From Pseudisothecium myosuroides (Eukaryota; Streptophyta; Bryopsida; Hypnales; Lembophyllaceae), in contig OX637288.1 in NCBI GenBank assembly GCA_951799445.1, positions 14,076,501 to 14,140,500 of the forward strand: a stretch of DNA of 64,000 bases, in the 5' to 3' direction. The notes beneath the pieces were generated by a model. It saw nothing but the letters and a program-made list of their open reading frames with translations. It was not told where the DNA came from and searched no databases. The stretch's first letter is position 1. Each line of letters opens with the position of its first letter. The translations under genes and the position numbers were made by a program. Below, in pieces: positions 8,848-63,877 of this stretch.

Positions 8848-9538
8848 TTAACCCCGAAAGTTCCTTGCCTATGTTCTCACCAAAAATGCTCCAAAACTGC
8901 CATTTCTAGTATAAGTACCAAAATTTTGAAAAATATCATTTTTGGACACATGTAACCATAGGATCTTGTAGTACTCTGGTTTGAGAGTGTGTGGAAAAAA
9001 TTTCAGAAATTTCCATCGTGTAGATTGCAAGATATTAGCGTTTGAAGTGGCAAAAGTCCTTTTTTTGGCCCTGCAAAAATCCAGGCAGCTGCACTTCACA
9101 AGGTCAAATTATTATGAAAAAATTTCCAAAATCTTTGTGCTTCTTTGGATTCATTCTTCAAGACAAGTTGGCTACATGCTTGAAAATTTTCAGATTATTT
9201 GGAATTCTACAACATACAAGAAAAAAATAGTAAGTAGAAAGAAGTAGAGAATGGTTCAAAACACTAAATTGTTAAGAAGTTAATTATGGAATTGAAAAAT
9301 GTCAATCCCAATGGTTGCAATGTTTTAATAAACAATCTACATCCTACAATTTTATTTTTTTTGAAAAATATTGAAAATTGTGTGAAATAAACAACTTCAA
9401 AGTTTATTTTAGAGTAGACAATCCATAATTGCCCGCAAACTAAAAATTTAAGCCCAAAATATGCAAATCTCCAGTCACACGTACCTGCCTAAAATTTCTA
9501 TGTTGCCAAAAAACGCATGTTGGTTCTTTAGGGGTTAA
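8848..9538 (+). mobile_element. piggyBac-like element A (non-autonomous)
   Basis: It is bounded by TTAA at 8848-8851 and 9535-9538. The ends read TTAACCCCGAAAG and CTTTAGGGGTTAA. The first 250 bases share the family core (AAAACTGCCATTTCT, then ACCATAGGATCTTGTA) with elements B, D, I and J, and it is closest to J (62890-63877) over its whole length. No coding capacity. Confidence 0.8.
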
Positions 9539-15025: not shown

Positions 15026-15423
15026 ATAAGTACTAGGCTTTTGGCACTTGCTTAAATCCATATAGCGCCTTGTTGATTTTATATACTTTGCTTGTATCAC
15101 TTGCATATGGGAATCCATCTGGAATTTCTTGAATTTATTTCTTCGTTTAGTGTTCTATTGAGGAACACGGTAAATTGGTAATTATGTCCATTTGTAATAG
15201 GGGTTAGTTGTGCTGAGCAACTAGAGCTAAAATTTGCAAATAGTGGACCACTAACTACTAAGGCAAAAATGTCTTGATAATCAATTTCATACTTTTGTTG
15301 AAACCCGCGTACAACTATTCTTGCTTTGAGTTTGTTGTTTTCCCCTTGCATGTTATGCTTGATTTTGAATATCCATTTGCCTACGTAGGAATTTTGCCTT
15401 TCAATCAATCCACTACTTCCCAT
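15026..15423 (-). pseudogene. Copia reverse transcriptase, N-terminal half
   Basis: Minus-strand translation gives WIFKIKHNMQGENNKLKARI then VVRGFQQKYEIDYQDIFALV, the classical start of the copia reverse transcriptase domain. After a frameshift it continues with IPDGFPYASDTSKVYKINKA and LYGFKQVPKA, where copia homology stops at the border of the inserted block. The catalytic YVDD lies in the other piece at 8.4 kb. Confidence 0.85.
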
Positions 15424-16309
15424 GTCTTATTTTCAAAATAGAGTTTATTTCACTCTAAATGGCACCCTACCAATCTGTCTGTAGGCTTGCCATGTAGAAG
15501 TCTATAGGTCCTTCCAAGAATTTTGATACCAGGGTCCAGAAGTCAGCTAATTTGATTGAAGGCTTTCCTATTTGGTTGAGGTATCTTCTTTCCCCTGGTT
15601 CGAAGTTCCTATCTATGAGTAAAGGTCTTTGAGATGTGGACAATTTTAATTGATGATGAGTGTTTGTTGAGAGATTTGGTGAGTCAGAGTTTGAAATAGG
15701 GGTAAGGGATGAACTCAAAGTCAAACTAGGGATGGAACTAGGGGTCAGGTAAGTTTGCGGTGCATTGTCTTGCATAGGCATGTTGGGTACTAAATTTTGG
15801 CTAGTTAATGCTGTAATTTCGAAAAGAAGCTTGATAGTTGGGATCTTTGAAATTGGGAGCTAGATAATATTGTCAACAAGTCTATTGCAATCTAAATATT
15901 GAAAGCCCACTTTACTTTTGTCAAAGATGACATGTCTACTAATGATCACCTTACAACAAATATTGTCATAAAGTCTGTAAGCTTTGGATTCTTTGTCAAA
16001 ATTCAAGAATAGACACTTTTGCAATTTGCTCTCAAATTTATTTTTATTCGCTTTTGAAACGTAGACATAAGCAAGACACCCAAATATTTGAAAATTTGAA
16101 ATATTAGGCTTTGTACCTTGGTATTTTCCTTTGGGAGTTTCTCTTGAATTAGCTCGCGTGGGATTTTTGTTTATGAAGTATATAACTGCTGCAACAACTT
16201 TTGTCTATAAGAAAATTAGTAATTGACAATCATAGGACATATTGCAAGCTCTTTCCAACATTTTATGGTTGCACCACTCAAAAATACCATTTTGCTGAGG
16301 AGTATTGGC
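15424..16309 (-). pseudogene. Copia integrase C-terminal part and linker to reverse transcriptase
   Basis: Just beyond the TTAA at 16310 the minus strand reads NTPQQNGIFEWCNHKMLERA, the conserved YTPQQNG region of the copia integrase. Further down, an open frame at 15467-15781 is rich in Ser, Thr and Pro, typical of the linker before reverse transcriptase. Frameshifts and stops are present. Confidence 0.75.
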
Positions 16310-17209
16310 TTAACCCCTAAAGGACCAAGGCATTTTCTGGCTCCAAAATCATTGAAAACTGCCATTTCTGTTGCAATCACTCTCAAAACCAATTTTTTTT
16401 TTTTTTTTAGAATCTAACCATAAGATCTTGTACTTCACTTGTCTTAAATCATATGGTAAAAGTTTCATGAAGTTTGACCTTATGGATTGGAAGATACTAG
16501 CATTTGAAGTTGGAAAAAGAAGTTTTTTTGAACATTTGACAGCCATTTGTGGATTTTTTTTGCACTGCACACTATAAAGTTAAAATTTTTTATGTTGAAC
16601 ATTTGAATTGAGAGTTGGGAATTTTTTTTTCAGAATGTCAAAACTTGATTTTCACATATAAAAAAATTGTTAAGTAGAAGTAGGTTCAAAATTGAATAAA
16701 ACACTAAATTGTTAATAGCTCTTAGGTGGAATTAATACACCATAATCCCAAAGGTGGGATTGTTCTTGCATACAAATCTAACCTTTTCAAAAAAAAAAAT
16801 TGAAAAAAATTGAAAAATTGCATTCAAAAATGAACTCTATAAGTTGTTTTTGAAGAAGATGCTTAGATTGCTCAAAAAACAAGATTGTCCATAACTTTCT
16901 CATTCTGAGTCCAAATAGAATTAATCAAAGCTTAAATATAGAAAAAAAAACATTATCTTTCAGAAAAAAATTAAAAATTAAAAAAATTCATTTTTTTTTT
17001 CATCCCAGCGAACAACCTTTTTGACTTAAGGTGGCATAAACTTTTGCTCCCGAGCACCGATTGGAAAAAAAAATTATATTTTTAGAAAGCTACTAACATT
17101 CCCTATCTTCAAAAAAAATTTTAAAAAATCAGGTCAAAATTTGAGGTCACATGAGCCTGCCCCAAATCCCAAAAGTCTGCCAAGGAGACTTTGGTCCTTA
17201 AGGGGTTAA
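16310..17209 (+). mobile_element. piggyBac-like element B, inserted in copia integrase
   Basis: It starts TTAACCCCTAAAGGACC (TTAA 16310-16313) and ends GGTCCTTAAGGGGTTAA (TTAA 17206-17209). It lies between the integrase core (17260-17466) and the NTPQQNG motif; if the element plus one TTAA is ignored, the conserved integrase motifs are adjacent and in register. It shares the family core AAAACTGCCATTTCTG and, near the right end, GCTCCCGAGCACCGATTGG. No coding capacity. Confidence 0.88.
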
Positions 17210-17259
17210 GTAAGCTCCCTTTGAATCCCATTTATAAGACAATAATTGATGAATTTTGT

Positions 17260-17466
17260 CTACAAGTATATGCCTCCGCAATCTGAACGTAAAGCTTGCA
17301 TTTTATTGCCAGTTATGAATTCAATTTGTTCCTTGAGATAATGGAATTTTGGAAATGCTTCATTCTTATGTTTCAAAAAATATTTCCAACATTTCCGTGA
17401 ATAATCATTTGTAAAAACAAGGATATATTGAGATCCGCTTAATAAAGGTTGCAGCATTGGACCCAT
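17260..17466 (-). pseudogene. Copia integrase core fragment
   Basis: The translation contains FTNDYSRKCWKYFLKHKNEA and ALRSDCGGIYL, matching the copia integrase consensus around the second catalytic Asp (FTDDYSR...RSDNGGEY). The Asn in FTND and the Cys in RSDCGG are departures consistent with decay. Confidence 0.85.
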
Positions 17467-17745
17467 AATTATGTCAATGCAAATTCTTTGTTTTGGTTTC
17501 TCTGCTCTAATATTTGATGTGCGAGGGAATCTTTATTGGTTCCCTATGTTGTTTCATTGCGGGACAGCAGTGATATACCGTTTTTTAACAATCCATTTGC
17601 GGAAGCTTGGTTACAACATTAGTTTGGGACAAAAATGCAGACCTTCATAGCTTAAATGACCCATACGACGATGCCATAATGAATACAAATCTAAGTAGTT
17701 GGTAGCTAATGCATAAATGTTGGATTTGGAGCAATAGATTCTATT

Positions 17746-18249
17746 CTAAGGATCTTGTTCCCTAGATGCAACAACCTGATCATCAAGATTTACTATCCAA
17801 CTATCTTTATTAGAAAAAATAACTTGGTGGCCAAAGTTAGCAAGAGCTTTGACTAAAACAAGAATGTAGTGAACCGGATTAAGCTTTATTTTTCCTGACT
17901 TGGTTTGTACTATAGCTGTGCCAAAGCCCTTCACAAAGTGCGGTTCTCCCCCTCCAGTTCTAATTTCATTAATCTGCACTTCTAACAAGCTAGGTTGTGA
18001 ATCTACTTTATCATAATCTGCTGCTACATGTTCACTTGCTCCACTATCAATGTACCACAATCCATTATCCCAATTGTAATAGGAGCCATAGTATTGTTGA
18101 TGTGCTATTTGGGACTCAAAAAATTCAAATGAATTAGGAAATCCCATACCTTGTGGTGATGTTGTCCCTTGATTAAGTTGGGTGTTGTGTGGAAGTTGAT
18201 AGTTCCACGTATAATGACCGATTTGTCCACAATTGTCATAGCATGTCAC
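17746..18249 (-). pseudogene. Copia zinc knuckle and aspartic protease
   Basis: It begins with a damaged CCHC knuckle (CYDNCGQIGHYTWNY, the last Cys replaced by Tyr) and continues to LWYIDSGASEHVAADYDKVD, where DSGA is the retroviral-type protease active site. This frame stays open for 167 codons, the longest surviving piece of the element. Confidence 0.85.
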
Positions 18250-22821: not shown

Positions 22822-23764
22822 TTAACCCCTAAAGGACCGGCATGCATTTTTTGGCCGTATAGAAATTTTGGGCAGGTCCGTGTGACTAGAGATTTCCATA
22901 TTTTAAGGTGAAATTTTGATAGAAGGTGGGCGCAAGGAATATCTTTCATTTGCACTAAATTTCAGAACATTTGGAAATAGGAATCAAAAGTTATGGCCAA
23001 ATATGTTACTTTTTTTCGTAACTGGGCAGTCCAGGCAGCAAGCAAAATTTGGCAAAATTTTGATCTTTTTTTTTTAAATATTTTTTTTCTTGTAGATTAT
23101 ATTTTTGTCTATCTGGAAAACTTTGATTCATTTCATTTGGATTTGTTATAAAAAAGTTATGGACATTCTTGTTTTTTGGGCAGTTAGAGCATCTTCTTGA
23201 AAAAAATAACTTGTAGGATTCATTTCTAAATGCTATTTTTGCAATTTTTCAAGAAAAAAAATTTCTCATGGTTTAGTTTACTTGCTAGAACAATCTCACC
23301 ATTGGAATTAGTGAATTTTAATTCTATCTAAAATATATTAATGTTTTAGATTTTCCTTCTCTCTCGTACCTACTTCTACTTAATAAATTTTTTAGGAATG
23401 ATAATTAAGTTTTTTTGAATATATTTTTTTTCCTAGACTCTCAACTCAATTCTCCACTATAAAGATTTGAAGCACAAAACTCTGTAGTGCAAAAATTTTA
23501 AGTGAAAAATGTTTAAAGTCAAAAAATCTAGTCCCGCAATGTGCTGAAATACTTGTTTTTTCCACTTTAAACGCAGATATCTTGCAATCTGAGCGGTCAA
23601 AAATTCTGAAATTTTTTCCACACATTCTCATACTAATTAGGTGTAAGATCCTACGGTTAGATGTGAAAAAAAAACATTTTTCATTTTTTTTTACTCCTTG
23701 CTATAGAAATGGCAGTTTTGATGGTTTTTTGGCAGAAAAAAAGCCTTGGGCCTTTAGGGGTTAA
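22822..23764 (-). mobile_element. piggyBac-like element C
   Basis: TTAA at 22822-22825 and 23761-23764; ends TTAACCCCTAAAGGACC and GGGCCTTTAGGGGTTAA. It lies in reverse orientation relative to A, B and D: the AGAAATGGCAGTTTTGATGG core is at its right end. It is very similar to F (49394-50333) over nearly the whole length. No coding capacity. Confidence 0.85.
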
Positions 23765-27956: not shown

Positions 27957-28514
27957 GTACCTTAATGATAGGTCTTGTGCTTTCAAGGTTAATCGTGTAC
28001 TGATGCTTGTGGCTTAAAAAGTCTTTGACAAATGACTTTCTAAGTCACTATAAAATGTACTTATTGGCCCAAAAATCACAAATCATTTTTGACAAAGTAC
28101 CTTCATAATAGGTCTTATACTTTCAAAGTTAACCCTATAAAAATGCTTATGGCCTAAATGTATTTAATGGATGACTTTCCAGATTACTATAGAAATCAAA
28201 AATGCACCTATTGGTCCAAAAATCAAATTATTTCTGAGTTGCTACTTTGTTACTACTTAGATTAGAATTTTTCTTAAATTAACCGTGTAACAACGTTGCA
28301 AACCTAAAAGATCCAATGGATAACTTTCTAGATTACTATAGAAATCAAAAATGCACCTATTGGTCCAAAATCAAATTATTTCTGAGTTGCTACTTTGTTG
28401 ATACTTATCTAATTAGAATTTTTCTTAAATTAACCGTGTAACAACATTGCAAACCTAAAAGATCCAATGGATGACTTCACTATTGATTGTAAAAAAAAGA
28501 ATGTGCCTATTGGT
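27957..28514 (+). repeat. Array of about 145 bp units, left part
   Basis: Four units carry AATTAACCGTGTAACAAC, CCAATGGATGACTTTC, GATTACTATAGAAATCAAAA and GCACCTATTGGTCC. The fourth unit is cut at the TTAA of element D, and two more units follow on the far side (36423-36700). Confidence 0.85.
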
Positions 28515-29834
28515 TTAACCCCTAAATCCCTAAAGCATGTTCTGGCTCCGAAAACACTGAAAACTACCATTTTTATTGTGTTCCTTGGCAAAGTTTTCAA
28601 AATAGATTTTTTCAAAATGTAACCATAGGATCTTGAAGTTAATTTGTATGAGAGGATGTGGTAAAAATTTCATGATATTTCACTGTATGGATTGAAAGAT
28701 ATTGTCATTCAAAGTCAAAGTTTTGATTTTTCCCAGAATTTCAAATGCTATTGACCGCCTTGTGCTCGAATTTTTTGCACTACACACCATAGGGTTAAAT
28801 TTTTTTCTTATAGTTCATCAAACTAGGCATATGAATAGTAATTTTCAAATCAATCCAACATACCTAACACATGGAAAAAAATCGTGCAATGCCACAATGT
28901 CTCAAGAATTGGAAGTACACTAGGCCATCTTCAAATCACTTTTCCTACCACATGTTTAGAGATAATTAATTTTCAAACAATGGATACATAGACATATTCA
29001 TACTTGACAAATAGGAAAAAAAATTTGATAAAAAATAAAAAATCTCAGATTTCTATGAGCTTCTGAAGTTTGCAGCTACCTCCAAAAAAGCTCACAAAGT
29101 GGGCAGCCCTTGTAGAAAGGAACCCAAGATGTTCCCAGTAAGTTCCCGAGTAGTTTCCATGTTCTAGTGCAAGGGAAGTTGTTTCCACGTTTTTCAACCA
29201 ACTTGTTCTTTCCCTTTGCTATTTATGGCAAATGGCTTCACTAATAATGACACATTGGTTTGTAATTGTACCAAATCAACTAGACACATGCCCATGGCCT
29301 CATTGCTTATGCAAGTGGTAGGTCTCTTATAAACAAGTATTGCTTGTAGAAACAAGTGGTAGTGCTCTTCCAAAATGGAGGTCAGAGTCCTCACAACCTA
29401 TCACAAAAATGCATTAGGTGAGTGGCAATTGTGAATGGCTCTACAAAATAAGAGATAGAAAGAAATTGACATTCCACTATGATAGTGAAAGTGGAACTTC
29501 TAAATGATAATTACGTCAAAGACATTCTATATTCATAGTTTTTCCATATAAAGAGCAAAAAATGCAAAACAAAAACATCTAAGAGGGCCTTAATTCTTTT
29601 CAAAATTATAATGTATTTAACATCTTCTAGTAACATAATAGTATAACCTTGTAGTGTAATGATTGTTGGTGCTCCCTATATTTACAATCACATTCCACCT
29701 TGTTAGCCTATACAAGTGTGATCTTCATGCCAAAAACGTCAAAGTGGCTAGGAACGTAGAAATTGTACTTACATTGTTTGTGCCTTCATTGAAAACTTTT
29801 GTGGTACTGTTGGAAACAACCTTTCCGAAATCAC

Positions 29835-31770
29835 ATGAATTTGTTGTCACAATTTGGACAATAGGTCTTTGGCTTGGTCAAAGGAGTTGACCCATCCTTG
29901 CAAACAATACATGCCCTTTGAAAATTGATGAACGCCGAATAACAAACGCGTGTACGCCACAGAGCTTCTCTACATTCAAGCCATCTCTTCCTCACCCAAT
30001 TACCTCTGAATGCTTGGCATAATTGAGTCCGCAATTGAAGATGAGTCATTGGAGGTTGAAGTGGCCTCCTTTGCTTGCATTTGTTCAAATAAATAACGTA
30101 CATATACACGATGTTGGTATCATTGTATCAATGAGAAAAAAAATCCGATGTCACTACTTGTGAAAACGAGTCTGACAAGTGTATAAGGCACGTAATTGGT
30201 CTACAACATCAACCTCCCTCATGTACGTCGTATATTCCAAATGCATTAGTAACATCTGTATTTTATCACTAGTAGAATCACTTCGCCTTCGGACGGACAC
30301 CATTGAAAACTTGCAACAAAATTGCACTGGAATTGTGTGTGAGGAGATGATGTAAGAAGGTTGGTAATCTTTTTATAAAATAGCGTAAATTTGGCGGGAC
30401 TTGTGCATCTGCCACTCCAAAGTTCCTTGTGGCTCCCTATTGAATGCTTTTGTTTTTCTTAGAATACTTGAAAGTCCAATCCAATTGCACCAAATAGTCC
30501 TAGTGGCATATTCATGTCCTTTTTTCTAATAGCTCTTTGAACAATGGAATTCTTATAAAAAAATTATCCATTGTTATGATATGGCCTTTGCCCTCGATTA
30601 GTGTCACTAATTACAAAACTACATCATAAGCCAAGCGTAGTGTTCTACAAGCTGCTGGACGTGGTTCATGTGCACTTCCATCTGAATGGGATCTTTGCCG
30701 CAATATACTTCAAAATTAAAGACGTACTTAAATTATGCATCAGCTAGACACCAAACCTTGAGGCTTCACTTTTGCGGTTTCTGAGGCATGTACTGCCGTG
30801 CTAAACAATACGTGCCCTTATACCAAATCATCATCTCGTCCACTATTGCAAATTTTTCCATATTCCATGCAGTTTTGCAACTATTTAGAACTACAATCAA
30901 CAACTATCAAATTTGGCCCATTTTGTCATATTTGGATCTATTTTTATCACTCTTATACTTAGACAGATTTGTAATATGCAAACACTTTGTCAATCTCTCA
31001 AATCAATTGCAAAACATGAGAGCGCTAATGGTTGAGTAATGGAATATTGAACCTTGTTTCTGCCAATATGTAATCACATTCGGCTGCCTCTTTATACCCA
31101 TATATAGAATTATGGCAATAAAAACCTTCAACTCCACTACTGTTAGAGGCTAACAATTTTCTCTTCCATAAGGTTTGTTGTCCTTGTTAACAAAAGTGGT
31201 GTACCCATTTTTCACTAGTAGAAAATTCAATTTTTCTGTTGTTTTGGTCGCGTTGATCCGGTCAAAATTTGACAGAAATCTGTTGATTTCAACAGATTTC
31301 TGTCAAATTTTGACCGGATCAACGTGACAAAAACGACAAAAAAATTGAATTTTCTACTAGTGTTTTTCCATGACAATGTTGTTCAAAACAGCATGAGGCC
31401 AATATATATTGAATAAATTTAAGAATATGGGGAAGTGCCTCCATGAGGCCGTAGAGCCAACATTCCAAGTGAAGTTGTGAGGCTGCAAGTCATAAGTGAT
31501 AAAATCCTTATGTCACTTACTATCGTAATATAAAAATTTGATGCCATTTATGTCTCCAATGTTTGAATCAAAGCCATCTTCATCTAATTCCGTGGAATCC
31601 AATTCTGCATACTTCACATCCACATCACTCTTACTTTCATACAAACTAGTCGGAAGTATAGTAAAAAGTGCACGTTGGCTACGATCACAACATTCTCCAT
31701 ATGGGTGAGGTGCATGGCCATCGTGTCCGTCATCCCCAAAATCGGAAAAACACTTTCCCCCTCAAAAAAC
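29835..31770 (-). pseudogene. piggyBac transposase (DDE_Tnp_1_7 type), decayed
   Basis: The minus strand contains, in the order of the family and across frameshifts and stops: an acidic N-terminus (near 31600, ELDSTELDEDGFDSN); FNIYWPHAVLNNIVMEK (about 31400); LTVVELKVFIAIILYMGIKR then QPNVITYWQKQGS (about 31100); RSKYDKMGQI (about 30930); VDEMMIWYKGTYC (30800-30843); RQYMPQKP then a KVWCLADA context (about 30735-30790); FNFEVYCGKDP (about 30700); LIEGKGHIITMDNFFI (about 30555-30605); a region resembling VDVVDQLRALYTCQTRFHK (about 30160-30220); and CIVCKDGSTPLTKPKTYCPNC (29837-29920). The VDEMM, LADA and MDNFF motifs hold the three Asp residues of the piggyBac DDD triad, and the last block matches the C-terminal cysteine-rich domain that binds the element ends. 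The enzyme cuts and pastes its element at TTAA; this copy cannot be functional. Confidence 0.9.
31213..31362. mobile_element. CACTA-like MITE, 150 bp palindrome
   Basis: The ends are CACTAGTAGAAAATTCAATT and its inverse, and the whole element is a near-perfect palindrome around 31288 (AAATCTGTTGATTTCAACAG core). The flanking T runs allow a 3-bp TTT target duplication, as in CACTA elements. It interrupts the transposase just after the ETNRY-like position. Confidence 0.8.
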
Positions 31771-31949
31771 TCAAATTCATGAGCATGTGCTTACCCTCCG
31801 TCCCTAACCCCAGCAAACTATCTCTCCCCTTTGGAAGATAGTTCAGGGTGAGGGGAGGAGGTTGAGGTGGGGGCAAGCTATGGGCTGCCTCTATCCACCC
31901 AACAATCTCCTTTGTCGGCCCCAACGGGCCTACTGCCTTCCCCGGTGGA

Positions 31950-34310
31950 AAGGCGTCCTTGCCTACCGACTAAATTGTACCAAAAGAGCCATGACTTGTA
32001 GCACATTCACAAGCACGGGTCACTTGCAGTTTTGGACGGGTCACCGGCGGTGAAGGGCGGGTCATCTACGGTCCAACCCAAGGCACCTATAGTACCTTAG
32101 CACTCCAGTTTTTGTTCAAACTTCCCACTTGCCCATTCCAATTTGTCATCCATTCCATTGTCATCCAAATGAAACCGCTTGAATTTGCCACTAGCAGCAC
32201 TTTGGGGCTTTGCACTTTCAGAAACGCTTCTTGCAATTTTGTAAACCGTAATTGTTGTGTAATGGGGTCTATTTGAGATTGAACCAAGGCAAACATAGAA
32301 GCATGTTAACGTTTGCTTCTCTTTCTCATTGTTCAGCGAAAGGGGCAAAACTCATTGATTCCTTGTCAGTCCAACTTTTAAAAATAAATTCCTTACGTGT
32401 CAGCTTGAATCAATCATTGTACTGATTCTCACAACAGAAACACAAAAGAATGATAGTGTTGGAAGCAAATAGCAGAGCTTATCATTTAGCCCTTGTGGAC
32501 TTTATGATTTGTTTAGCTCGTTTGAGTGGTCATTTATAGACTTCCTTTCGTTCAATTTTATTTACTTTGTGACAAATGCATATAATGTGCTTCCCAATCA
32601 ATGTCATTCAACCTTTGGATGGCTAGGTGATTGATTCTCTCAAGCAAGGCACATCATTAGGAAGCTTTATTATTGTCCTAAGAGGGTTAATAATTAAACA
32701 AGCTCTCATTCAAATGCTCGACACTAGATCATGGTACTCTCATGCAAACAAACACAATAATGACATGTCAACATTTTAATTTTGAGATAAAAATAGAAAG
32801 CCCAAATTTCACGTAAACTTGATTTTACAAATTATTCTGGCAATGCAATATAAATCTATAAGGCATTGATGGCTAACTCTATGAAACATTCCTTGAACAT
32901 GCGAGAACTTGCAACTTTGTAGTTCCACAATGAAAAATTGAGTTAGCATGAAAATGACATCATAAGAAAAATGTCAATAAAAATGTACTCTGACTTTCAA
33001 TCAACAATCCCAAATCTTAAAAGAATCTGTGAGACTATCTTATGCAAAAGATTCCTATTACTAAAGTATGCTTTGTGAGCTAGTTTACCTGAGCAAACTC
33101 TTACAGAAGTCGATGTAGAGCAGACGTGACCACTAGCTCTACCCTTAACCATATTCTTAGCTTTCACAACTTTTTGTGACATGTCATGACGTTGTTGAAT
33201 CTTGCCATTATTCCTAAAGATTAGAGAAAACATTATTAGAAGCCAAAGTGAGAGCTGCACAAGGAGGGCCGTCTTTAGAAAGTTCCTTAAAACCCCTCGG
33301 AACACGGCATTGATAAAAGAATCAGAACTTTCATGTGCAATAGTCTCAATAGATGTGAACCAAAGGCTGGGTTATCTGTACCAAAGGAGCACAGCAAGCA
33401 CTAAAGCCGCTGAAATCTTGACATACAATACACCATCGTCCATATAGTGAAAATAGATGGGCACAAAATTGTCATAAATCTGGTCAATAGTCAGGAAATC
33501 CTGAAAGCAACATAAAGGGTTATCAGTGTTTTACTCAGCACCATCTACTTTGCCATTGATTAATTATACACATGTTGAAGGTGTTTTTCAAACATAAGAG
33601 ACTGGAGGAAATACAAAGAGAAGTGGAAAGTCTTGAAGGAGAGAGCGTTGCATCCACCATTCATTGGTGCCACTTATGCTCTTATTAGCTTGCACCAATG
33701 CAGGAATCATTGCTGCATAGTTTGTGGCTTTTGTCTATGCATTGGACACATTGAAGTTGAAACATACCAAATTTCTCAAAATCCGATTTGTGTTGAAAAT
33801 ACTACAAAATATTAGTCCATTATCAAAACATTAACAATGAGGTATCCTTGTCTCAATCGGAATGTAAAGCTTATATTTCAACACCACGAGTTGGGTGACT
33901 CACTCTGGCCAAAAGATTATTCAAAACAACACCTTGGAGGGTGAGAGCTTTCCAAAGTTCTCTTTTGGTACGCTTGCTCAAAGGAAACCTCCTTGAAAGG
34001 ATTAGTAGCAAGCAAGACACAATCAAGGTCTCTTCAGCAAGAATAGAGAGCACATCTCTGAAGCGATTCAGCATGCAAAGCCGCATAGTGCCATTGGTGG
34101 CAAATTTAAGATATCTATTTGGATGATAATGAAATGGATGACAAACCAAAGCGGGTAGGTGGGAAGTTTGACCTAAAAACTGCAATGCTCAGGTACTATA
34201 GGTACCTTGGACTAGACCACAAGTGACGCGTCTAAAACTGCAGGTGATTCGCGCTTGTGAATGTGCTACAAGTCATGGCCCTTTTGGTACACCCTAGCCG
34301 GACTCCTTGC
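31950..34310. mobile_element. Element with long diverged inverted repeats (possible Mutator-like)
   Basis: Left arm 31950-32345 pairs with right arm 33880-34310: TGTACCAAAAGAGCCATGAC, CACATTCACAAGC, GGCACCTATAGTACC, CAAACTTCCCAC and TTTGTCATCCATT all recur inverted on the right. The arms are about 400 bases and perhaps 75-80% identical, enclosing about 1.5 kb without recognisable coding sequence. Long inverted termini suggest a non-autonomous Mutator-like or foldback element; no target duplication was identified. The palindromic open frames in the arms are artefacts. Confidence 0.65.
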
Positions 34311-36100
34311 TAGGCCCACCCCTTTGACCTGCGGTAGGCAATGTAGAAGGTTAGTAGGCAGAGAACGTTGCTTGCATCGGCAACTCCCCCCACCCCATCT
34401 GCTCCTAGGTAAGTCGGTCGCAGGTGCCCACCTCGCGCTCCCACCCGCTCCCATGCACCTCCCCATTGCTCCCAACGCAGTCGCCATGAAGATTCCCTCC
34501 CTCATGCACTACGTCGATGTTAACGTCCTCTGTGCAATCCGACGCAGTGGACATGTGTCATGGTCGTCTTGCCAATTTGCATTTGTATAATTATGTGGAA
34601 TTGTAGAACATCTCAGGTGGCCATAGAAACTCTTCTAGTGAGCAGACCTCTAAAAAAGCGTAATTGCCTTCATTGAAGTCATCCTCCTCAAGCTCTTCAC
34701 AGTTTGAATCTTTGCCATCAAACAGTTGGAATGGACTATTCACAAATTCGGGGTTAGGTTCTCCAATCTGTATTGTGTTTGTGAAGTAATCATTCTGCTT
34801 TTGTTGACAGAGGATGAGCGGAACAAGAAGCAGTATTGGGTACCCCAAAGTTGTAGTTGCAACTTCAGCAGATGAAATACTCTTGTCTGCAGGAGTTGGA
34901 TCGGCCGCACTTCTTGCTAACAATGCTATCAATCAACAACTGCAATGTACTAGAAGTCCATTCCAAGCAATCTGTAGCAATGAAACCAAAGATGACATTA
35001 TACAATGCAAGACTAATATTGGAATGACAGGAAAGTTGAAGGAAAATAGGAGTACCTCTTTTCCCTTGCGGCTTGACCTCATGCTTGTAATTGTAGCTCT
35101 CTTTGCAAACAAATTAGTCCCTCACACCTCTCATACAATCAAAAGTTTTTTTCTCATGCAATCACAACTACAAACTTCTCATGTACACTTTTAAAGCAAG
35201 TCACAGTGTAGTCTAAAGTTTGGGCTCCAATGTCTATCTACCTTGGTGCATGATAGCAATGCTGCTACAGTGGTAGGTTTCTACACATACAAATGTAGCC
35301 CAACTAGCATTAATTTCAGAGGTAGAGTTGTTGTGAGGTAATGGTTGTAAAATACATTTTTGGAATTCTAAGCATTCTTATTGCAAAGTCATGAATTATG
35401 GTAATACAACTTCAATTTCAACAATTGTCATGAAGTCATGCCTCATATTGTAAAGTATAAAATAGTTTTGTGTAGTAGGGATTGTACTAATCTAGCTAGT
35501 ACAACTGCATTTTGTTGTCAATGCTTGAATGAGTAGCTAAAAATTAGAAGTTGCAGTACTTAGAAGTCATAATTTTAGGTTCTCTGGCTTCAATCTCTTG
35601 TTCAGATGAAATTTCAAACAACAATTTTAATCACGAATTTCCACTCATTCATAAAAATTTCTTCCTTCATGTGCCGACAATGCACTTGCGCATCATTTTC
35701 TTGAGCAGGGAGATTGTCAGTCCCAAAAATTTAATTGAAATGTGGCAAAAAAAAATCGAATTTGCACCGCCATCTCTGCGCGGCTTGCAACTTGCGATAG
35801 AGGCCTTGCCTTATGAGCTAGACTGCCGGATAGAACCCCTCTCCCACCTTGATACCCTCCCCATATCTGCCCCTATACACCACCTAGACAGCCCTTAACC
35901 TCGGCCTAATACCCCCAACCCGAGCAAGCCTCCAAGTAGCCCCGCCCCCTCTTCTGTCTAGATACCCGCCTTCCATCCCGCCTTGCAATAAACCCTCCCA
36001 ACCCCCAACTGTCCAATCCAACCCAATCACAATTCCCTCCCTGTTAGGCCGCCCCCTGATTGGTTGATCTTGCCCCGCTCCCCTCAACCATGTCAGTGAC
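34311..36100. other. Interior of element D, no gene recognised
   Basis: Overlapping frames at 34591-34932 (minus, acidic) and 34814-35194 (plus) have no recognisable domain. A GC-rich patch lies at about 35760-36120. It may hold further old insertions within element D. Confidence 0.35.
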
Positions 36101-36422
36101 TGTACAATGGCCTAGGGCCCGGAATTGCCAAATTCCATCCGATGCCTTCCTCTTTCCTTCATGTTCTGCCCACCTATATTGACCTTCCAAAGTCAAAGGC
36201 TAATTGCATTGCCCCAGCTACCCAAAGAATTGCTTTTGGCAAAAAACATTATAACTTCTACGAAATAAGTTGGATTTCAATGAAACTTACATGCACGCGA
36301 AGCTCATGAGAAACTATACGCACACAAAAAATTTCAAAAAATCAGGTCACGAATCGCGATTCCACGAGCTTGCCCAAAACCCCAAGTGCCCCCCAAGGGA
36401 AATTTGGGGATTTAGGGGTTAA

Positions 36423-36700
36423 TAATTAAAGAATTTTAGTAATTACCTTGGTCATAGGGGGCTGCATCTTTCTAAGGTTAACCCTATAAGGATGTTGTGG
36501 ACTTAACAAATCCAATGGATGACTTCATTGTAAATCATAGAAATAAAGAATGCGCCTATTAGTCCAATAAATGGAGTATTTTGATGGCTATTTTGGTCAT
36601 AGGGGTCCACGTCCTTCTAGAGTTAACCATATAATGATGTGGCAGTCTAAAAGTGTCTAATGGATGACAAAGAAACCTTCTATGTAAGACAAAAATCACA
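36423..36700 (+). repeat. Array of about 145 bp units, right part
   Basis: Two further units (GTTAACCCTATAAGGATG, CCAATGGATGACTTCATT, AATGCGCCTATTAGTCC) continue the array from 27957-28514. Adjacent sequence to about 36800 resembles the inverse of the short elements K and M (TAGTTTGACCCCCATTGAGT). Confidence 0.8.
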
Positions 36701-39705: not shown

Positions 39706-39976
39706 TTCATTGTCTCACCTAAGCAAACTAGCTATATTTTTAGACAAGATAAGTACTGCTTCGGGTCCGCAAAGCATTTATGAGTAGCAAGTTTAATCAC
39801 ATTCTCTTTCAGCGCCCATTCATCAAGGTCTGAAATGCACTGTTTTAAGGGATTTGTGATCATATACCTTCGCGGCGTTTGTACAGGCAAATGGGGATAA
39901 CTGCTGCGTGAAAATGTGAGTGAGGAATCTCATGTGATCAATTTTTTTGTGTTTTTTGCAGCAGGAAATTCTACCC

Positions 39977-40876
39977 ATGGCTGTAACGGTTCGGCTGGCC
40001 ACCCGGCTTGATATCCCGCTTTTAAACTTGATGGTCCATGAGCTCGCTGAGGTAGAAGGTATGGCATCCGGCTGCGAGTCTACCGCTGCCAGGCTTGGCG
40101 AGCTCCTCTTCACCCACGCGCCATTTCAAGGACCCACTGTCTTCATTCTCGAGGTTGATCAGCCTGCGAAAAAGGGAGAGCAATCCAAAGAGGAAGATGG
40201 TACGTCCGACACTGTTGTGACAAAGCTCAAAAAAGAGACATCGCCATTGCTTGAAGAGGAATACCCTGAAGGCGGTGGGCAAGGAAGTGCAGAGTCGGTG
40301 GAATTGATGCTGTTTAGATCCGTAAGCAATGTGAAGTACGAAGGGAAATTTTTGAGTGAGGTTGGTCCGCCGAGGTTTTCAGGAATCCATTTGCAAACCA
40401 CGGACATGGAGGAGCCTGTTTTGGAGATTTTTCGATCCGACAGTGATGTCAATCTCAAAGAACATGACGCCCCTGTTGCAATGCCAGAGGATGTGAAACC
40501 AGAAGTGGTGGGTGAATTGAGATGTGTGGTAGAGGACCCCGAGGTCGAGACATTTCGTTCGCCGTGTACAGCTTCTAAAGTTGTTGCTGGCTTTCTTCAC
40601 GTTTTTCCCAACTTCTCGACCTACCTTTGCAAGCCAGGGCTGTTAATGGAGGCGCTCTACATCAGGAAACCCTACCGACATCTGGGGTTGGGGAAAATGT
40701 TCCTCAAGAAGATTGCCAAGGAGGCTGTTAAGCTGGGGATGGAGAGGATGGAATGGGGCGTATTGTACTCCAACGACCCTGCCATCAAATTTTGTGAAGG
40801 TTTAGGTGCCGGAATCAAGCCTGGATTTCGGCGTTGTGCCATCAATGGCCAAGCTCTTGCCAATTGCGAGCCCTAG
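39977..40876 (+). CDS. GNAT-family N-acetyltransferase, NATA/SSAT-like, 299 residues
   Basis: The start chosen is ATG 39977, 13-16 bases after a strong intron acceptor (TTTTTTGCAG), so the 5' leader is probably spliced while the coding sequence is one exon. The N-terminus (VTVRLATRLDIPLLNLMVHE) and residues 200-297 (AGFLHVFPNFSTYL, then YIRKPYRHLGLGKMFLKKIA, ERMEWGVLYSNDPAIKF, GLGAG) follow plant NATA1-like and animal spermidine/spermine acetyltransferases, which acetylate small amines with acetyl-CoA. The acetyl-CoA loop RHLGLGK is at 234-240. Two oddities: an acidic insert at about 63-199, longer than in known relatives, containing three spaced FRS motifs (113-115, 152-154, 193-195); and Cys273 where the family has the general-acid Tyr (FYE). 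Substrate and activity are therefore uncertain; a cytosolic enzyme is inferred. Confidence 0.85.
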   Translation: MAVTVRLATRLDIPLLNLMVHELAEVEGMASGCESTAARLGELLFTHAPFQGPTVFILEVDQPAKKGEQSKEEDGTSDTVVTKLKKETSPLLEEEYPEGGGQGSAESVELMLFRSVSNVKYEGKFLSEVGPPRFSGIHLQTTDMEEPVLEIFRSDSDVNLKEHDAPVAMPEDVKPEVVGELRCVVEDPEVETFRSPCTASKVVAGFLHVFPNFSTYLCKPGLLMEALYIRKPYRHLGLGKMFLKKIAKEAVKLGMERMEWGVLYSNDPAIKFCEGLGAGIKPGFRRCAINGQALANCEP

Positions 40877-49393: not shown

Positions 49394-50333
49394 TTAACCC
49401 CTAAAGGACCGTTGTCCCTTCGGGAGACAAATGCATTTTTGGGCAGGTACCTACGGGCTGAAATTTTCTTGTGATTTTTTGAAACTTTTTTTGGAGATAG
49501 AAAAACTGATAAGCTTTGTGGGAATATAATTTTTTTCACAATTGGTGCCCGGGAAAAAAAGTTATGACCAAATAAGCTCAAAACAGGGGATGGTGGGCAG
49601 TCCGGGCAGCAAAAAAAAATGGACAAAAATTTGAATTTTTTTTTTAAATATTTTTTTTCTCATAGATTATATTTTTGTCTATTTGGAAAGCTTTTATTCA
49701 TTTCATTTGGATATGTTATGAGAAAGTTATGGACATTCTTGTTTTTCGGGCAGTTAGAGCATCTTCTTGAAAAAAATAACTTGTAGGATTCATTTCTGAA
49801 TGCAATCTTTCAAATTTTTCAATTTTTTTTTTTGCATGGTTTAGTTTAGTTGCTAGAACAATCTCACCATTGGGATTAGTGCATTTTACTTCCATCTAAG
49901 AGATATTAATATTTTAGATTTTCCTTCTATCTCGTACTTACTTCTACTTAACAATTTTTTTAAGAATGATAATTAAGTTTTTTTGAATTTTTTTTTTTTT
50001 CCTAGACTCTCAACTCAATTCTCCTCTATAAAGATTTAAAGCTCAAAACTCTGTAGTGCAAAAATTTTAAATTAAAAATGTTTAAAGTCAAAAAATCTAG
50101 TCCCACAATGTGCTGAAAAACTTGTTTTTTTCACTTTAAATGCAGGTATCTTGCAATCTGTGCGGTCAAAAAATCTGAAATTTTTTCCACACATTCTCAT
50201 ACTAGTTAGGTGTAAGATCCTATGGTTAGATTTGCAAAAAAAACATTTTTCAATTTTTTTTACTGTTTGCTATAGAAATGGCAGTTTTCACTGTTTTTTG
50301 GCAGAAAAAAGGCCTCGGTCCTTTAGGGGTTAA
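49394..50333 (-). mobile_element. piggyBac-like element F
   Basis: TTAA at 49394-49397 and 50330-50333; ends TTAACCCCTAAAGGACC and GGTCCTTTAGGGGTTAA are perfect inverses of each other. It is close to C over most of its length (for example AGTTAGAGCATCTTCTTGAA) and in the same orientation. The perfect termini suggest the youngest family member here. Confidence 0.88.
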
Positions 50334-60490: not shown

Positions 60491-61017
60491 TTAACCTCTG
60501 AAGGACTAGAGAGCATTTATTGCATAAATTGTCAAAAAAATGCTTTTTTGTAGATTAAAGAAAAAAAACGAATTTAAAAAGAAAGTTCAATTATATATTT
60601 TTTATTGCATAAATGAATAAAAAATTCATAAACTTTGACATCATGAATTGAAAGATTAAGATGTTTGAAGTTAGAAAAAAGAAATTCCAACCTTGCTGGA
60701 TAGGATCAAGAAACATTGATTCCTCTTAGAGTAAGACTTTTATATCTTATGAATTACATACCTGCCAAATTTCAAAGGTTGAAGAGGAATTTTGCACATG
60801 GGATTGGAAGCTGCCCACTTTGCCCTGAAAGTTGTGGGTAGCATAACTTTAATCGAGGCACCTGATCAGGAAAAAAAATTATATTCCCCCTTAGGAAATA
60901 TATGTTTATACCTTTTATCGAATTTTCAAAAAAAGATCCATTTAAAATTGACTTTGTAGGAACCTACCAAAATTTTGAATGGATTGTTCAATGATCACTT
61001 GGTCCTATGGGGGTTAA
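60491..61017. mobile_element. piggyBac-like element H
   Basis: TTAA at 60491-60494 and 61014-61017; ends TTAACCTCTGAAGGAC and GGTCCTATGGGGGTTAA. It shares its right TTAA with element I. The right half resembles other members (AAGTTGTGGGTAGCATAACT, then CGAGGCACCTGATCAGG). Confidence 0.75.
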
Positions 61018-61604
61018 CCCTTATAGTCCCAAGACCATTTTTTTTGTCAAAAACCACTCAAAACTGCCATTTCTGCTACATTCACCCATGAAAGTAGAAA
61101 AAATGTTTGAAAAAAAAAATCTAACCATAGGATCTTGTACTTCACTTGTCTGAGATCATGTGGTAAAAATTTCATCAAATTTGACTGTACGGATTGGAAG
61201 ATATTAGCATTTGAAGTTGGACAAAAAGATTTTTTTCAAGAACATGCTTAGATTGCCCGAAAAACAAGATTGTTCATAACTTTTTCATCGCTAGTCCAAA
61301 TAAAATGAATCAAAGTTTCTCATGTAGACAAAAATATAATATTTTAGGAAAATAATTAAAAAATAGTAATTTTGACTTTTTGTGAATTTTTTTGGGTTGC
61401 CTGCCAATCTCCGTTTTTGGCTTTTTGTGCCATAACTTTTGCTTCCGGGCACCGATTGAAAAAAAAATTATATTCCTCAAGAAGCTTATGTATTTTTCTA
61501 GCTTCACAAAAAGTTTTAGAAGATTATTATGAATATTGAGATTGTATAAGCCTTCCCAAAGTTGCATTTTGGCCCCGTAGGACCAATTGGACTTTAGGGG
61601 TTAA
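61014..61604 (+). mobile_element. piggyBac-like element I
   Basis: TTAA at 61014-61017 (shared with H) and 61601-61604; ends TTAACCCTTATAGTCCC and GGACTTTAGGGGTTAA. The interior has AAAACTGCCATTTCTG, AACCATAGGATCTTGTACTT, GATTGGAAGATATTAGCATT and TTTTGCTTCCGGGCACCGAT, the best short summary of the family. No coding capacity. Confidence 0.85.
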
Positions 61605-62889: not shown

Positions 62890-63877
62890 TTAACCCTTGA
62901 TAATCCCTGACTATGTTTTCACCGAAAACACCTCCAAAACTGCCATTTCTAGTACGAGTACCAAATTTTAGAAAAAACAAACATTCTTGGATACATGTAA
63001 TCGTAGGATCCTAGTTGTAGAAAATGTGGAAAAAACGTGGAAAAATGTGGAAAATGTGTAATTGTAGGATCCTAGTTTAGAAGATGTGGAAAAAATTTCA
63101 GAATTTTTCAGAGTGCCGATTGGAAGATATTAGCATTTGAATTGGCAAAAATTTTTTTTGTCTCTACGAAAAAACAGGGCAGCTGCACTTCACAAGGTCA
63201 CATTTGTATGAAAAAATGTCCAAAATGGTGGTGCTTCTTTGAATTCTTTTTCCTAAACAAGTTGGCTACATGCTTAAAAATTTTCAAATCATTTGGAATT
63301 TTACAATGTATAGGAAAAAAATAGTAAGTAGAAAGAAGTAGAGAATGATTCAAAACACTAAATTGTTAAGAAATTAATTATGGAACTGAAAAATGTCAAT
63401 CCCAATGGTTGTAATGTTGTTATAAACAATCTAAATCCTACGATTTAATTTTTTTCAAGAAATATTGAAAATTGAGTGAAAAAAGCGACTTCAAAGTTTA
63501 TTTTAGAGTATAAAATCCATAACTACCCGCAAACTAAAACTCCTCATAACGTACTTTTGACTCATTGATCAAAATGGAATGATTCAAAGCTTTCCACGTA
63601 TATATAAATCTAGAAAACCAATTTCAAATTTCTGTTTCTGAAAAAAGTGATTTTTTAAAATCTGGCCGAAGTGCCCTAGTTGGAAAACAAACTACATATT
63701 AGGCCATAACTTTTGACTCCTATTTCCAAATGTCATGAAATTTAGTGCATATCAAAGAGATCCCTCGTCCCCACCTTCTACTAAAATTTCAGCCTAAAAT
63801 ATGCAAATTTCTAGTCACAAGTATCTATCCTAAATTGCTAAATTGCTAAAAATAGCAGCAAGTCCTTTAGGGGTTAA
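62890..63877 (+). mobile_element. piggyBac-like element J
   Basis: TTAA at 62890-62893 and 63874-63877; ends TTAACCCTTGATAATCCC and AGTCCTTTAGGGGTTAA. Near-colinear with A (8848): CAAAACTGCCATTTCTAGTA, AGCTGCACTTCACAAGGTCA, GTTGGCTACATGCTT. It is about 300 bases longer than A because it retains a segment around 63540-63780 (CATAACTTTTGACTCCTATT) that A lacks. No coding capacity. Confidence 0.85.

Follow-up and report, generated by a model that had tools for sequence, protein, structure and literature searches.

The window, a 64,000-nucleotide stretch of the genome of the moss Pseudisothecium myosuroides (C2:14076501-14140500, on a contig of 50 Mb), carries at 28515-36422 a piggyBac element that is complete but dead, with the remains of its transposase on the minus strand. 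The element measures 7,908 bp including both TTAA copies, and its limits were set by its inverted ends and by collinearity with a second copy, L028. The two termini, at 28515-28534 (plus strand, on the 3' side of the transposase) and 36403-36422 (minus strand, on the 5' side), form a terminal inverted repeat that matches at 19 of 20 positions including the TTAA (TTAACCCCTAAATCCCTAAA), and the TTAA-flanked termini described in the first-pass annotation were thus upheld. Each terminus is TTAA followed by a CCCCTAAA-type inverted repeat, and the end 20-mer was observed twice in the window at ≤ 3 mismatches, against a chance expectation of 0.01 per window. Overall, the best explanation, to which we assign a probability of roughly 0.93, is that a moss chromosome here carries an old but complete copy of piggyBac, a DNA transposon of the cut-and-paste type; the element's membership in piggyBac is secure.

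The decayed DDE and Cys-rich domains, placed by Pfam, tblastn and motif positions, occupy 29801-31239 on the minus strand, where frames are broken and interrupted by stops. Three catalytic blocks were located in this region, namely VDEMM (D1, 30843-30829), MDNFF (D2, 30571-30557) and VDVVDQ (D3, 30213-30196), followed by a C-terminal Cys/His cluster (29911-29801). These blocks and the cluster are spread over two frames, and all three minus-strand frames of the element are stop-rich. The earlier claims of minus-strand piggyBac blocks and of a C-terminal Cys cluster were therefore confirmed, and its proposed DDD triad (VDEMM, LADA and MDNFF) was correct for the first and last of these motifs; LADA is present at 30747-30736 but is not catalytic, and the third Asp lies in VDVVDQ. 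When compared with the Pfam profile DDE_Tnp_1_7 (PF13843), a check for which the first-pass annotation had called and which came out in favour of piggyBac, 3 of 10 minus-strand stop-to-stop pieces matched in the right order and 7 did not. The matching pieces covered profile positions 34-77 (E = 1.1e-4, 22.1 bits), 116-153 (E = 0.0093, 15.7 bits) and 198-229 (E = 0.0023, 17.7 bits), all three scores being below the Pfam cut-off of 22.4 bits. A tblastn search with seven intact relatives from the genome aligned window positions 31239-30103 with E-values of 2.6e-34 to 1.3e-57.

These seven relatives all matched PF13843 (E = 3.2e-74 to 2.3e-84), and the moss transposase core has an RNase H-like fold, like that of piggyBac. 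The Asp residues of VDE, (T/V)DxxF and GVDxxD (D199, D278, D391 and D394) were invariant in 7/7 core sequences, and we take these positions to correspond to D268/D346/D447 of Trichoplusia ni (T. ni) piggyBac. A cluster of the CxxC...CxxC...C...C....H type was likewise found in 7/7; in P0003, P0004 and P0006, one of its Cys residues is either absent or substituted.

L028 is a 5,301-bp copy on the same contig, ~23 kb before the start of the window, and its transposase domain is interrupted by a stop. The window element is collinear with it from end to end apart from nested inserts, and the two copies have diverged to a Kimura two-parameter (K2P) distance of about 0.36 over 4,388 aligned sites (including a small number counted twice at overlaps between pieces). 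The window copy is the longer of the two because it contains an insert of ~2.3 kb, a 150-bp palindrome and ~91 bp (29641-29731) that are missing in L028; at least two nested insertions into the window element are thus shown. The larger insert, at 31966-34301 (ends approximate), has long inverted arms and corresponds to the gap from 34582 to 31889 in the alignment with L028. Its arms include a pair of 86 nt matching at 84% and further inverted stretches inward of these, with ~1.9 kb in between. The smaller, at 31213-31362, is near-perfect, with 74-nt arms that are 95% complementary, CACTAGTAGAAAA ends and flanking T-runs, and it may be a very small element of the CACTA or foldback type. The element as a whole sits inside an imperfect tandem array with a period of ~150 bp, which extends over 28017-28514 (plus strand) on its left and continues as related units at 36466-36668 on its right. 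When the flanks of the element were joined, no single clean alignment to another repeat unit was obtained across the junction, parts of the flanks aligning separately, and an empty site for the window insertion was not proven.

The window also contains short elements with related ends. The 12-mer TTAACCCCTAAA gave 15 matches at ≤ 1 mismatch (0.82 expected), and these pair into at least four complete non-autonomous elements: e1 (8848-9538, 691 bp, TTAA-ended), e2 (16310-17209, 900 bp), e3 (22822-23764, 943 bp) and e4 (49394-50333, 940 bp). The ends of e2 match those of L028 (89% over 65 bp and 78% over 98 bp), and e4 shares 90% identity with e3 across 745 bp. Two more diverged sequences, with approximate limits, are a non-autonomous relative at 61014-61604 and a relative of e1 at 62890-63877 (87% over 457 bp). 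A search of the 388-Mb genome (222 contigs) with e3 gave 6,369 first-look matches, which are candidates and not a copy number; the best 40 were scored, and all 40 were full length, with 95-97% identity once the window's own copy was set aside. A specific 20-bp end occurred 665 times at ≤ 2 mismatches, compared to 66 times for the reversed pattern. Judged by these sequence counts, short TTAA-ended derivatives are abundant in the moss genome, in agreement with the many non-autonomous derivatives claimed previously, and they would be internally deleted relatives mobilised by the moss transposases.

One of these derivatives recorded an insertion event. L029 (C1:9398717-9400590) is an e3 copy split by another element, and its two pieces overlap at query positions 692-695, which in e3 are TTAA. 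The inner element is 940 bp long, with TTAACCCCTAAA at both ends and TTAA at both junctions. Once its flanks are put together around a single TTAA, the resulting sequence matches e3 1-943 at 93.5% over 945 columns. This single case shows the insertion trace expected of piggyBac, in which the 4-bp TTAA is duplicated. By the known piggyBac mechanism, the moss transposase would bind the terminal repeats, excise the element through hairpin ends and insert it at another TTAA, and the vacated site would carry no scar.

Transposase genes of this kind are not confined to the window. The genome gave 899 candidates for PF13843, of which 116 were scored; all 116 exceeded the cut-off (lowest score, 243 bits), are located on contigs C1 to C11 and represent a lower bound on the number of loci. 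In 15 of the 116, the match was free of stops and the open frame around it was ≥ 1,000 aa long. This distribution bears on whether the window element is a contaminant, i.e., an animal, fungal or oomycete contig fused to plant DNA, as might be suspected since piggyBac is best known from animals. Two protein searches (best 27 of 6,349 and best 27 of 4,053 candidates) also pointed to animals insofar as all organism-named relatives among the matches listed were animal proteins. However, these were only 22-30% identical, whereas the closest relatives among the matches listed were unnamed environmental proteins with up to 80% identity over a portion of the core. In addition, elements with related ends flank, on both sides, a single-exon acetyltransferase-like gene (39947-40876) for which the sole organism-named relative among 19 matches was from the moss Ceratodon purpureus (59% identity; unnamed matches reached 91%), a relationship that argues for a moss host. 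The window spans 14.08-14.14 Mb on a contig 50 Mb long, and the transposase domain is distributed over C1 to C11, which fits neither contamination nor a local chimera; we therefore rejected contamination as exceedingly improbable, and the earlier view that the host is a plant stood.

In 20 ten-kb stretches taken from the genome, two families of near-identical copies were defined. The five copies of family A are 5,410-5,412 bp long, carry a perfect 14-bp terminal repeat next to their TTAA and differ pairwise by 0-4 mismatches and 0-2 gap columns. Their open frames span 1056, 901, 895, 1056 and 1056 aa (whole in 3/5), and the protein counted from its first Met has 1032 aa. Family B comprises six copies of 5,628 bp with 0-2 mismatches, all six of which retain a 1,091-aa frame (1068 aa from the first Met). 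Several families in the genome have intact transposases, all of them single-exon, and near-identical copies at separate locations. The flanks of different family A or B copies have only partial repeat matches in common (the longest being 375 bp), and the copies are thus separate insertions; their near-identity suggests that both families moved very recently. It is unlikely, given the number of contigs involved, that this identity would be an artefact of assembly, and some moss copies look as though they may still be able to jump. The reading of the locus as a plant piggyBac element was supported, and beyond the dead window copy the genome also has near-identical intact ones. The transposase core is under strong purifying selection, as would also be seen if the copies were domesticated host genes that no longer move. 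Domestication is nevertheless very improbable, as the intact open reading frames (ORFs) lie within TTAA-ended terminal repeats and occur as several near-identical copies at different places. Two things are new here: piggyBac copies in a moss that moved recently, and the predicted extra module.

The ends of 19 copies were tabulated. All 19 have TTAA at both ends, which is weak evidence alone because ends were sought at TTAA, and in all 19 CCC adjoins the TTAA at both ends; the available part of one source gives 5'-CC..GG-3' as the rule for piggyBac termini (PMC10045372). Several end pairs were chosen by eye among TTAAC[CT][CT] sites, and L022 was excluded from the table as its end pair was ambiguous. 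The initial end search gave no ends for L014, L021, L022, L023 and L027, in which terminal matches are shorter, and likely ends were later found by eye. At the right end of L015 (C1, ~12.69 Mb), the TTAA of a family B copy is directly followed by CCCCTAAAGTTCC, the start of another piggyBac-like end; from the sequence at the junction, it seems that this copy inserted at the TTAA belonging to a neighbouring element. The ends CCCCTAAATCCCTAAA (28515-28534) and CCCCTAAA (at family B ends and likewise in the window) resemble CCCTAAA, which we take to be the plant telomere repeat; the likeness is probably due to chance on top of the usual CCC start of piggyBac.

A tree was built from 64 of 69 rows, P0045, P0047, P0048, P0054 and P0059 being left out for coverage < 0.55. 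Its animal sequences came solely from searches with moss queries, and it is a thin reference sampling rather than a full piggyBac phylogeny. One clade, apart from the sampled animals, held the moss copies together with 28 of the 38 unnamed proteins (local support, 0.999); the other 10 unnamed proteins lay outside it. The moss copies fell into six deeply divided groups within this clade, and the window copy grouped with L028 (support, 1.0). A phylogeny with animal, oomycete and algal piggyBac had been proposed in the first-pass annotation; in the tree built here, the moss clade separated from animals on a sampling made up of animals and unnamed environmental proteins. The 28 environmental proteins in the moss clade (jgi, ena and lgn) include many of 850-1195 aa, and seven environmental proteins (P0008, P0009, P0013, P0014, P0017, P0019 and P0043) have, by eye, a VP...G.V...V.FGG-type module resembling that of the moss. 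P0010-P0018, P0020-P0022 and P0024 form a group of 13 piggyBac proteins encoded on environmental contigs, to which none of the moss copies placed in the tree belongs; the three of them that were inspected (P0013, P0014 and P0017) have the similar module in their N-terminal part. No relative was confirmed among 54 pattern stretches on viral contigs or among 111 on contigs of prokaryote genomes.

The youth and near-identity of families A and B are also what one would see if animals or another kingdom had recently passed the element to the moss by horizontal transfer and a burst had followed. We consider such a transfer unlikely, since the moss copies form six deeply divided groups whose clade they share with unnamed proteins and not with the animals sampled, and since the window copy has diverged far from L028 (K2P as above); if it did take place, the source may have been an unsampled alga or fungus.

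In the moss transposases the N-terminal half is long, and a small Tudor-like barrel is predicted within it. The closest known systems are T. ni piggyBac (6x67) and bat piggyBat (9c0f), from which the moss element differs in host, and the T. ni chain has 594 aa compared to 976-1068 aa for the seven translated moss ORFs. Known piggyBac has a disordered N-terminal tail of ~100 aa according to a passage of PMC9499001, in contrast to the long moss half with its predicted barrel. The barrel, of 72 aa, was predicted for one family and aligned in nine copies; Tudor and chromobarrel domains top its lists of structural matches and are again among the matches to this region in the full-length AlphaFold model, which has a mean predicted local distance difference test (pLDDT) score of 57.8 and is of low confidence outside the core and the barrel. 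There is about an even chance that the barrel reads no histone mark and is simply an SH3-like fold that contacts DNA or protein; the prominence of Tudor and chromobarrel domains among the matches speaks against this. By eye, the aromatic positions of the barrel differ among sublineages. The least certain step we propose is that the Tudor-like barrel would contact chromatin or a partner protein and so bias where or when the element moves.

Two described systems are comparable in part. A Tudor-domain Gypsy element of Ectocarpus is likewise a mobile element with a Tudor-type module, and its authors, in the portion of PMC12477816 available, consider it to their knowledge the first reported transposable element with a Tudor domain; it is a long terminal repeat (LTR) retrotransposon with a C-terminal Tudor domain, whereas the moss element is a DNA transposon whose module is N-terminal and Tudor-like by prediction only. 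Tpb2p of Tetrahymena is likewise a chromatin-linked piggyBac protein but is domesticated, unlike the mobile moss element, and its Cys-rich domain binds to peptides of H3, the binding being stronger when they carry K9me3/K27me3, whereas in the moss the candidate module is a separate N-terminal one (excerpts of PMC3861120). It is conceivable, if on balance doubtful, that mosses and perhaps streptophytes have their own ancient piggyBac clade that captured a Tudor-type reader, is still jumping and has shaped the genome via thousands of derivatives. If true, this would be, to our knowledge, the first DNA transposon to contain a Tudor reader, and it would offer an enzyme native to plants for seamless gene delivery at TTAA. 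Were the extra module to read chromatin, target choice by a cut-and-paste transposon would become testable.

PiggyBac is in wide use for gene delivery. Plant marker-excision work has used the insect transposon (PMC4309413 and PMC5505980, each in part), and the near-identical intact moss copies point to an enzyme adapted to plants, for which laboratory Physcomitrella could serve as a test system. Among the papers listed in searches of the literature within reach, which left out most subscription papers and Repbase, we found no report of piggyBac in a moss. The earlier statement that piggyBac is rare or undescribed in land plants was checked in part, the absence of earlier reports being unproven: in the sections available, angiosperm miniature inverted-repeat transposable element (MITE) superfamilies include PiggyBac (PMC10004981), and a fern repeat table lists 1,230 PiggyBac pieces totalling 122 kb (PMC6890710). 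The angiosperm MITEs are likewise short non-autonomous plant elements assigned to piggyBac, but the passage names no transposase source for them, whereas the moss has intact families in the same genome. Partial texts differ on the range of piggyBac: two include 'plants' (PMC10140906 and PMC10813416), one speaks of 'most eukaryotic evolutionary lineages' (PMC9499001), and another has it as 'occasional, e.g. red algae' (PMC12732532). PMC10619864 was discarded as a source on piggyBac in plants, its available text containing only 'piggybacking'.

Elsewhere in the window, fragments resembling a Copia retrotransposon were recognised by eye from the ORF list at 15097-18249 on the minus strand.

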